The notes beneath the pieces are model-generated. The model did no database searches. It worked only from the letters and a program-made list of their open reading frames with translations, and was not told the origin of the DNA. 64,000 nt of DNA from Guyanagaster necrorhizus (Eukaryota > Basidiomycota > Agaricomycetes > Agaricales > Physalacriaceae): NCBI RefSeq assembly GCF_019112545.1, contig NW_025064882.1, positions 2,348,971 to 2,412,970 of the forward strand. Direction: 5' to 3'. This document shows, piece after piece, positions 1-26,404 of this stretch. The translations under genes were made by a program, and so were the position numbers. Positions within the stretch are counted from its first letter, which is position 1. The number at the start of each line of letters is the position of its first letter.

Positions 1-1354
1 TCTCGCTTTCGAAGCTCCACTGATCATTAGCCCTCACCCAATTACCGAGGCCATCGCAATATCGAGAAACCTGCAGGTCAACGGGACCTCCCCATCTCGG
101 CACTTTCTTGAAGTTTTCCATGAACCTGGACTCGAGCTGCTTGTGGTATTCGTCGACCCAAAGCATGGCACCTGCCACATCTGTCCTAAGCTCGTTCATT
201 GCGATAGTGACAATATTGTGGCTAGAGACTGCGTCAGAATGATAATGACGGGTGAAGTACTATTACCCACCCGTCGTCATCCCGAGCTTGTTCAAGGTTA
301 TATGAAACAACATCCTTGAAAAAAACACTAGGTCATCTTCTGCTTCTCTTGATTATATACAATCACTCACATTTCCCAGGCAGAGCATATCAATGCAGCT
401 CTTCTCGAGCTCTTTAATAACCGGATGATTGATGACGTCGTCCGGCAACTGCATGTCGAACTCCAGAAGCGCAAACGATGGCTTCGCGCCGATAGTGCAC
501 CGCCGAACTTCAAGGTACGACTCGATGCTTCGGACGTGAGAGTTGTTTCGATCGGCGGCCTGTTGCACGACAGCTTCCAGGTACTCGTCAAAGGTGTCGA
601 TGAAGCGTTTCTGCGCCTGGGTGCTTGCTGTCTTCTTCGCAAGGTCCCAGAATCTATGGTGCATCAGTTCCTGGCTGATAGGTATCTAAACGTGTGGTAC
701 TGACTGCCGAGAAACTTCTCCTCCAATCCATTCTCCGGCGGGACGTGGCTTCTCTGTGTTCCGGATGGCGTCCATGACTATGTCCTTCTGTGCGCGCACT
801 TAGACAGATGTCAACAACACTGCCTATTTCTAGGAGAAGTCCAGTGGGCTTACCTTCATCCTCTGTCGAGACGTCCGAGTATTCGTCGATGACGAAGAAA
901 CTGTATGATCGCATCAACAAAATATCCCCGAGCAATAACTTAAAGACCTACAGGTTCATGAGATCACATCCACTACGGAGACGTGCTAGAGACGAGGGCA
1001 GATTAGGATGCTTGGACAGTCAAATCTTATGTCCTGCATTACTTGCCTTTGTCCGCCAGCGGGTACGCGAATGAAGCGAGGAGGTCTGAGTGATGGCGTC
1101 TGGTCAGTTGAAGTCCAGTAAGCACCGCAATCGTGACCTACTAAAGTCGCAGCGATCGAATGCTTCCTGAGCTTTCGTTTTGAAGGCCTAATGCTCCTCA
1201 GAACACTCGATGTGGGTATACATTGTATGCAACTTACTCGGAAACTTTGTGCCCAGGCCGCTGATTCCTTCTTGACTTCAGCATAGTGGGGGTTAAGATG
1301 GCGAGGCCACTGCCAGTTGGCAAGAGTATCAGGAAGGAAGATGCGTTGAGACAT
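1..1354 (-). CDS. Sesquiterpene synthase, delta-6-protoilludene synthase-like (3' end beyond window)
   Basis: This class I terpene cyclase is expected to convert farnesyl diphosphate to a tricyclic sesquiterpene in the cytosol. The start at 1354 gives MSQRIFLPDTLANWQWPRHL, the usual N-terminus of this basidiomycete clade. Exons read on the minus strand include 952-985, 854-900 (FFVIDEYSDV, the aspartate-rich metal motif as DEYSD), 705-798, 371-653 (RRCTIGAKPS), 271-314 and 1-221. Joining 371-653 to 271-314 gives the second metal motif NDVVSYNLEQ with its N, S and E intact. Near position 25 it reads CDGLGNWVRANDQWSF; the usual terminal RY pair lies beyond the window edge. One intron (donor at the 3' end of the exon ending ADK, near 1050) appears to use a GC donor. 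No frame break is needed. The protoilludene assignment rests on remembered clade resemblance. Other 1,11-cyclising products are possible. Confidence 0.88.
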
Positions 1355-3130
1355 TGAGAATAGCGGAAGAAGGATGTGGGGATTTTCTGAAAGATCAGTC
1401 TGGAACCTCTTAAGTTTCTGGCAGGAATGTCGCTGGTGATTTTTAAATGTAGCGGAAATGAACTGCTTGCGATAGCGTGAATGAAACCCGTCGCAACATC
1501 CATAGATGGTATCGGTTCGCGAGATTTACCCTCCTTCGGGTTGGGAACTTCTCTGAAGCGTGGCTACCGTGCCTTGGTGTAACATAAGCCGGGGCGCGAC
1601 GTTGGCGTAACTCCGGTATCTAACTCCATGCGTGGATGCCTTAAGCGCCACTCTGCGCGAACATTCCTGTGCGGAGTTGAAAAAGAACCAGAAAATGGAA
1701 ATGCCACCTCGCCTACATGCTACCATAGATGAATCTGAACTGAGATTCATTGATATTGTTTAGTTGTCATAAATATCAGTAAGCAAAGGACGAGCATTGT
1801 TTCGTTCACCCTGGGTCTGATCCGCGTTCCGTATAGCTTTACGACGGTTCACAACGATCCTGTATCAACGGTAACTCGGCCCTATCACGACGGCTCACAA
1901 ACCATGACGAGTCATCCTTTCTAGTTTTCCTATTCTTGACTTTTGTGAGGCGTGACGTCAACTGCTAGGTAGAATTTCCAAGTATAAAGAGGGGGTGATA
2001 TATGAAGAACGTCGAATAAAAATATGAATAGACTTCGTTCACCCCGTTCGGTGTGAACGGTCGACTTAGACGACCGTAACAGCATTCCGTGGTATGTCAG
2101 CGTCTATGGACTGGGCCTTTTAGCGCCGGCCTATTCATAAAACTGGAGTCTACTGGAAGTCATTCAAATCAAGTATCGCATCCGATAAGTAGCCTTCGGT
2201 CTATGCACCTTCATTAACGTCGTACGGAAGTTTGGGATATACTCAAAAAAAGTTAATAAAGTAACATATCCCGGCAGACAAAATGATAACCGCATGATCC
2301 ATCTTCCACGGATTACTGAAGGCGTCAAGTATATGCTCTTTCCGATTCGGAATTTCTTGTAATACCTTGTATTCACTTGTAACACCTTTGCAGACCTTTG
2401 GGCCCGACATTGGCGCTGGTAATGTCCTGCGAGCGGCGAGTCGATACACGCCCTCAACTGTCCAGGGGTAAGTACACCAATGGGGGTTTGGCCTATATAC
2501 CTCCAGTTGGAAGAAACAGAGCCACCGGGACCGAGTGATCGACCACGCGTACTATCTAGATCGATAATTGTTCCACAAAAATGGATAACATTCAAGAAAC
2601 AATTGCACAATAATTCAAGAAGTGCCTGGGAGGCACCTGGCAGGAAAGGAGCCCAGATCGCAGTGGGAGTTCATGGGAAAATTTGTCAAGTCAACTGGGC
2701 AGGGAAAAAAAGCCAGTCTAAGTAGTTACAACATTCCAGCTCGAAGCTCCCAAGTGAACCAAAGGCGGCGATGCGCGCGGAATGGTACCAGTGACGGATG
2801 TCGGCTCGGATGGCCCGGCCCTACTTTGGCTATTTACCTCCGTCATCATCGAACACCTCATCTCCGCAGGGGCCTGATCCACTGAAATTTCACGTTTGAA
2901 TAGAGGACGTTGGAAAATGTTCGCTCATTCCATGGTTTCGACTCTGCGCCCGACGGGTATTGATCTTGATTCAACTAGTGACCCTCTTCGGAGTAACGGT
3001 GACTGATTACAATGGTTTCTACTTAATGGGTATGCCTCTCTGTACTTTCCTTTGTGGGAAGACTGAGCATCGGGATACAGTACATCTCTAAGGGCTAAGG
3101 GTGCTGTTACCTTCTCGTTTCCATCTTGTC
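1355..3130. other. Intergenic region, divergent promoter of terpene synthase and P450
   Basis: About 1.8 kb lies between the starts of the divergently read terpene synthase and P450. I see only short unrelated open frames with no recognisable domain. It should hold both promoters. I could not pick out a convincing TATA box or repeated operator. Confidence 0.6.
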
Positions 3131-25033: not shown

Positions 25034-26404
25034 ATGGGTTCATCTTCGCATATTGGGGATGAGAACTCCCTTCTTGACCTCACCGGTAAGGTAGCTGTCG
25101 TTACCGGAGCAAAGTGCGTAGGCGTTGGGAATAGTCTTCTTTGGCTGACCAAGGATTCAGCTCAGGGATCGGCCTATATATCCTTCTCCACATCGCCCGT
25201 TGCGGAGCCAGAGTGTATCTTGGGGCCAGGACGGAAGACAAATTTAACAGTGCTGTAGCCCGCCTCAAGACAGAAGGGCTTGACACCAGCAAGGTCATAT
25301 GGCTGCCCTTTGATCTGAGTGATCCTAGAAAAGCAAAGGAGTCTGCAAAGTGGCTTTTGGAAAGGGAGAGCCGGCTTGACATTCTCGGTTCGTCGTGATA
25401 TTCAAGTCAGGGGAGAGCCATTTTACCTGTCCTATCGCTAGTCAACAATGCAGCAAAGTATGTCAATGCTGACGTCTGTGAACTGTACGGCTAACCAGAG
25501 TCTTAGAATCTTGGGTCCGTACGCTCAGACTGCAGATGGTGCGTCACTTCATCTGGAAGCAATTACCGTGTCCAACTTGTCATGAACAGGCCTGTCGGAT
25601 AGCATGGTTATCAAGTGAGTTTCTTCATCTACGTCGTTCAAGGTGAATCTTACGGTTCTTCTTCATCCAGCCACATGAGCCCATACTTGTTCACAAAGAC
25701 CCTCTTACCGCTACTAGAATCGACGGCTCGTCAGCCCGGATCTGACGTACGCATTGTGAACGTGGGTACCCACCGTTCCAAGATATTTCCATCAACTGAT
25801 TCCAATCCAGGTGTCCTCCGTCGCCCACCGATGGATACCAAATCCTCGATACGACAGTCTGGAGGCCTTCAACTCTGATTTCGCCGATACATGGAAACCC
25901 AAGACGAATTTGTACGGTGCGTCGTGAATTGCTTCTGGGCCTGGATAATAGCCAATGACGCATTGGTAGCATATACGAAGCTGGCGAATGTTCTCTGGAC
26001 GAAGGAGCTTCAGCGGTCATTCGATCGTGCTAATATTCCCATTCTCGCCATGACGGTCCACCCAGGGAATGTCATGTCTGGTGCGCTATTTCCTTCCCTC
26101 CTCCGGCCACTCCACCTGACGCCTTCCAGAGGGTAACATCAAACTTTTCAAGTCTCTAATGTTTGGAACGATTATAAACTGGATCTTTTCGCTATTCTTC
26201 ATCAGCCCATTTGATGGAGGGTACACGCCTGCATGGGCAGCCGCTTCGAAAGCCATTGCTGAAGACCGCGGCAGGTATGCTGGGGTGTATCTCGTTCCAT
26301 TTGGAGTGATAGAGGAGGCGAGCGAGCACGCACAGAGAGAGGACTTGGCGAAGGATTTGCTGGCGACGACGGACGCTGTCCTTAAGCAGTACGACTATGC
26401 TTAG
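25034..26404 (+). CDS. Short-chain dehydrogenase/reductase, distinct third type
   Basis: This SDR belongs to the same superfamily as copies 1 and 2 but is clearly divergent. The start ATG at 25034 gives MGSSSHIGDENSLLDLTGKV. Splicing out the first intron rebuilds the cofactor motif TGANSGIG (around 25110-25175). VNNAA lies near 25445, NHMSPYLFTKTLLPLLEST near 25670, and the catalytic YTK with upstream LYA is joined across an intron (YAYTKLANVLW, around 25915-25990). HPGNVMS lies near 26065 and the protein ends LKQYDYA with TAG at 26402-26404. Between the NNAA exon and the YxxxK exon some splice sites are uncertain. It is co-directional with SDR copy 2 and may be the last gene of the cluster. 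Confidence 0.85.

Follow-up and report, generated by a model that had tools for sequence, protein, structure and literature searches.

The 64-kb window analyzed here (64,000 nucleotides of Guyanagaster necrorhizus DNA, positions 2348971-2412970 of NW_025064882.1, contig C3) very probably carries part of the G. necrorhizus copy of the armillarioid melleolide gene cluster, as judged from its gene content and from its two core enzymes, a protoilludene synthase and an orsellinic acid synthase. G. necrorhizus is an armillarioid mushroom, related to the honey mushrooms that produce the antibiotic-like melleolides, and its genome comprises 53.3 Mb in 109 contigs. The presence of the cluster in this species is already known, as a paper that in turn cites other papers names it as common to G. 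necrorhizus MCA 3950 (PMC10146329). The present analysis provides gene-level evidence for a whole melleolide gene set and for off-cluster halogenase candidates in Guyanagaster. The gene set runs against an earlier statement that melleolides are exclusive to Armillaria (PMC7778616); it adds a comparison point for melleolide evolution and will be no surprise to specialists. In the following, window position x corresponds to position 2,348,970 + x of C3, and negative numbers denote positions to the left of the window.

Genes were modeled with a purpose-built gene finder, for which 293 kb of C3 served as training data; 5' ends and short exons are approximate. The original prediction listed eight genes in a given order, and all of them were recovered in the models and in Pfam searches, where every gene exceeded the cut-off of one or more families. 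The first is a sesquiterpene synthase (STS) of 345 aa on the minus strand (1..1354, with the start codon at 1354 and the 3' part reaching to -112; Terpene_syn_C_2). It is followed by a cytochrome P450 on the plus strand (3131..5407; p450, haem motif FGFGRRACAGR), a GMC oxidase on the minus strand (6937..9397; GMC_oxred_N and GMC_oxred_C, with PDB matches to GMC oxidases), an SDR on the minus strand whose 5' end is unsure (10654..12295; adh_short) and an O-methyltransferase (OMT) on the plus strand with unsure N-terminal exons (about 12369..14287; Methyltransf_2). An NR-PKS of 2210 aa occupies 14738..21891 on the minus strand, and two SDRs on the plus strand complete the series (22938..24281, Pfam-typed, 5' end unsure; 25034..26404, adh_short), the last of them ending at the very position where the predicted cluster ended. 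Seven of the eight genes were modeled by the gene finder, while the exons of the OMT were read by eye and later modeled piecewise. The region 25034-27934 was at first covered by one fused model, which later modeling resolved into two genes. The second of these (26661..27934, plus strand) is an NAD(P)-binding, NmrA/epimerase-like gene with weak Pfam matches below the cut-offs, and its membership in the cluster is doubtful. The SDRs at 10654 and 22938 are paralogues sharing 76% identity. Shared, divergent upstream regions had also been anticipated, and the models contain three divergent pairs, namely STS/P450, SDR/OMT and PKS/SDR, with about 1.8 kb, 0.1 kb and 1.0 kb between their members.

Several features were noted to the right of these genes. 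A Zn2-Cys6 transcription factor gene (33737-36205; Zn_clus, Fungal_trans) is located about 6 kb from the cluster. A short piece at 40927-41275 looks like the beginning of a cluster SDR, being 44% identical over 95 aa to the one at 10654, and is perhaps the remnant of an SDR duplicate, and a further SDR-like model lies at 56701-58231. A tRNA scan and an Rfam scan of the 64-kb window gave no matches.

The impression of a compact cluster of 26 kb turned out to be an edge effect, because the window edge cuts the cluster. Extension to the left of position 1, which had been suggested as a check, revealed the end of the STS gene and gene models for an SDR (-1622..-382) and a P450 (-5103..-2816), followed at a greater distance by three further P450s within -42731..-31711, named after positions -34191, -38549 and -42731. 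Two of the five P450s adjoin the STS; four of the five were typed by Pfam and the fifth (-42731) by eye. The P450s at -34191 and -5103 are 71% identical. In total, the locus contains one STS, one NR-PKS, five P450s (three of them putative members), four to five NAD-type oxidoreductases, one GMC oxidase and one OMT, i.e., 13 genes and one doubtful gene. The Armillaria cluster is described as consisting of PRO1, armB, five P450s, four NAD-dependent oxidoreductases, one flavin oxidoreductase and one OMT, with the halogenases outside (PMC8618933). Apart from the uncertainty over one NAD-type gene, the Guyanagaster locus agrees with this set in gene types and numbers. Sequence comparison underlies the match of STS, PKS and a single halogenase, while the P450s, the SDRs, the GMC oxidase and the OMT were paired by type and number only. 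On this basis, the four NAD-dependent oxidoreductases find their counterparts in four SDRs, to which the doubtful NAD(P)-binding gene may be added, and the flavin-dependent oxidoreductase finds its counterpart in the GMC oxidase by type. The NAD-type gene in excess of the published four, which may or may not belong to the cluster, counts against the assignment.

The STS is 92% identical over its full length to an Armillaria gallica entry named Pro1, and the two sequences pair in a phylogenetic tree with a support of 100. Among solved structures, a Delta(6)-protoilludene synthase (8h72) was its best match, and the motifs DEYSD and NDVVSYNLEQARDDDGHN were read in its sequence. Identity and tree placement identify the enzyme as a Pro1-type Delta(6)-protoilludene synthase and presumed Pro1 orthologue, as the original prediction of a protoilludene-type STS had anticipated. 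In the whole genome, Terpene_syn_C_2 gave 23 exon-level matches at 15 places, and the SAT domain gave four matches, one of which is the PKS of the window. The terpene and PKS repertoire of this genome is of normal size for a mushroom.

The NR-PKS exhibits the domain order SAT-KS-AT-PT-ACP-degenerate ACP-ACP-TE. It is 90% identical to a PKS of A. solidipes and 85% identical to a PKS of A. mellea, both of which are taken to be ArmB orthologues. In the PKS tree, it falls into one clade with four Armillaria rows (support 99), which is adjoined by BY1 PKS2 (88) and Crucibulum (83). Pfam domains, identity, alignment and tree thus agree with the predicted orsellinic-acid type and point to an ArmB-type orsellinic acid synthase with a TE domain, probably the orthologue of ArmB, with Armillaria PKSs serving as reference rows. 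The positions which we take to be catalytic, C561 of the KS, S1009 of the AT, H1339 and D1525 of the PT, S1695 of the ACP and S2043 and H2184 of the TE domain, are invariant in all seven aligned PKSs. The same seven sequences share GFSSG as their SAT motif; the canonical motif carries a Cys. Between the two Ser-bearing ACPs lies a middle ACP-like domain that lacks the attachment Ser, because AYGLDKF replaces GVDSL. In the alignment, this degenerate domain (GLDKF) is common to Guyanagaster, A. solidipes and A. mellea, and it is intact in Jaapia and BY1 PKS2. Five characterized orsellinic acid synthases of clade VIII are reported, including ArmB, BY1 PKS1 and BY1 PKS2; ArmB and three others display the SAT-KS-AT-PT-ACPn-TE setup, and ArmB was functional without its SAT domain (PMC10401856).

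The identities of STS and PKS together with the gene set lend strong support to the sesquiterpene aryl ester pathway of melleolide type that had been proposed for this locus. In Armillaria, published work assigns the cyclization to Pro1, both the synthesis and the transfer of orsellinate to ArmB, the oxidations to P450s and a GMC oxidase, and the chlorination to ArmH enzymes. For G. necrorhizus, we infer all enzymatic steps as well as expression of the genes and membership of the three far-left P450s. The STS would cyclize farnesyl diphosphate to Delta(6)-protoilludene, which P450s and SDRs would oxidize to a sesquiterpene alcohol. The NR-PKS would synthesize orsellinic acid, and its TE domain would pass the acyl group onto this alcohol. 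The GMC oxidase and the remaining P450s would complete the terpene part, the OMT would methylate the aryl ring, and halogenases encoded elsewhere may chlorinate it. Ester formation cannot be revealed by sequence, and the genes might be read as two independent neighboring pathways that yield a protoilludane and free orsellinate. This is highly improbable, given that both STS and PKS have close Armillaria counterparts and that ArmB in Armillaria is reported to transfer orsellinate onto a sesquiterpene alcohol (PMC7778616; PMC8618933).

It also counts against a melleolide cluster that three of the five P450s stand apart. They are separated from the remaining genes by 26.6 kb without a predicted gene (-31711 to -5103). 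One piece in this gap was typed by Pfam as a retroviral-type protease, and two others, without a Pfam match, resemble by eye a retroelement reverse transcriptase and RNase H. A gene-poor stretch with retroelement-like pieces could indicate that the cluster was split by transposons and is decaying or silent, with the pathway being dead in Guyanagaster. We consider this improbable, since the gene models of STS and PKS showed no disabling lesion and the PKS retains the residues conserved across the seven aligned PKSs. Moreover, CYP-Arm1 of A. gallica is also reported to have a reverse transcriptase gene in its vicinity (PMC7778616).

No halogenase is present among the genes typed by Pfam in the cluster, and the original prediction combined this finding with the presence of an OMT to propose a methylated, non-chlorinated melleolide relative. 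Both observations hold for the cluster itself. However, an OMT belongs to the regular gene set of the Armillaria cluster (PMC8618933) and is thus no mark of a distinct product, and halogenase-like genes are encoded elsewhere in the genome. A search with the Trp_halogenase family gave a single exon match and was misleading on its own, as a protein search of the genome identified five halogenase-like loci, of which contig C17 carries two and C26, C5 and C61 carry a single one each. One of them was compared with named relatives: the modeled C17 halogenase is 80% identical to halogenases of A. fumosa and Desarmillaria tabescens (with a query lacking one exon), and its sequence at the position of the GWxWxxPL motif is GWAWFIPL. 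The other four loci are 41-82% identical to the C17 query, exon by exon. An MFS transporter gene adjoins the modeled C17 halogenase.

The cluster of A. mellea is likewise described without a halogenase, and the unlinked armH1-5, equal in number to the halogenase-like loci of Guyanagaster, each chlorinated melleolide F (PMC9144378). Because the combination of an in-cluster OMT with off-cluster halogenases is standard in A. mellea and five loci exist here, a non-chlorinated product cannot be inferred, and the five unlinked loci therefore leave room for chlorination. The position of halogenase genes is variable, since armH4 is reported to lie inside the cluster of Floccularia luteovirens (PMC8618933), and this variability, next to the lack of a typed halogenase in the cluster, would favor a pathway that yields a methylated but never chlorinated melleolide. 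Such an outcome is nevertheless unlikely in view of the five loci, the similarity and motif of the C17 enzyme and the off-cluster halogenases of A. mellea, and the non-chlorinated reading was rejected. Of the initial interpretation, the melleolide-type pathway is retained, while the distinct non-chlorinated product is not.

The evolutionary origin of the core enzymes was addressed by phylogenetic trees. A first STS tree contained 63 of the best 120 of 403 matches plus the query, and a second, careful tree comprised 48 rows (47 plus the query), with P0088 among those left out. In the careful tree, armillarioid Pro1 is placed among rows of Russulales and Boletales (support 98/96), with order labels that we presume to be correct. 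Forcing Pro1 together with 17 sampled Agaricales rows made the tree 154 log units worse (AU p 7e-6), and forcing it together with three Hymenopellis rows from the same family made it 158 log units worse (p 4e-5), with the groups for these AU tests having been picked after the first tree was seen. In the first tree, a long-branched Agaricales row (P0088), later dropped from the second tree, was located in a mixed clade near Pro1, which counts against the Agaricales forming a clean group. The PKS tree, based on 50 of the best 120 of 1,880 matches, leans in the same direction, and alternatives were not rejected (p 0.16 and 0.28). Crucibulum, an Agaricales row, is close to the armillarioid PKSs in this tree, and P0130, the Agaricales row that is the nearest non-armillarioid PKS by path, was in neither of the tested groups. 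The STS placement fits horizontal transfer or old paralogy. As a tentative scenario, which we regard as rather unlikely, an armillarioid ancestor might have acquired the protoilludene synthase, and perhaps the PKS, horizontally from a Russulales- or Boletales-like fungus, and the ester pathway might have been built around it. Old paralogy with subsequent losses explains the same trees. A joint transfer of the whole cluster is unsupported, as the PKS tests reject no alternative and as the longest contigs given for the listed STS relatives and PKS relatives differ in length in Dentipellis, Bondarzewia, Auriscalpium and Artomyces. If the acquisition scenario were true, the melleolide-committing enzyme would not have been inherited alongside the Agaricales relatives.

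The Guyanagaster genes can be compared with several known systems. BY1 PKS2, a clade VIII enzyme of a stereaceous basidiomycete, shares the SAT-KS-AT-PT-ACPn-TE architecture and 52% identity over the whole query, whereas its middle ACP is intact (GVDSL) and that of Guyanagaster reads GLDKF. F. luteovirens, likened here by description only, is also reported to carry a melleolide cluster outside Armillaria, and melleolide I was isolated from it, but it differs in the in-cluster location of its armH4 (PMC8618933). The mld cluster of A. mellea is reported to comprise 15 genes, with Mld5 as the STS and Mld15 as the PKS (PMC13295948), compared with the 13 genes plus one doubtful gene in Guyanagaster, whose GMC oxidase (6937..9397) is matched to Mld7 by position and type only. 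Finally, the Guyanagaster locus differs from the Armillaria melleolide cluster in the 26.6 kb gene-poor gap before three of its P450s, and it resembles this cluster in its STS (92% identity), its PKS (85-90%), the equal types and numbers of its genes (counting the three distant P450s as putative members) and the location of halogenase genes outside the cluster.
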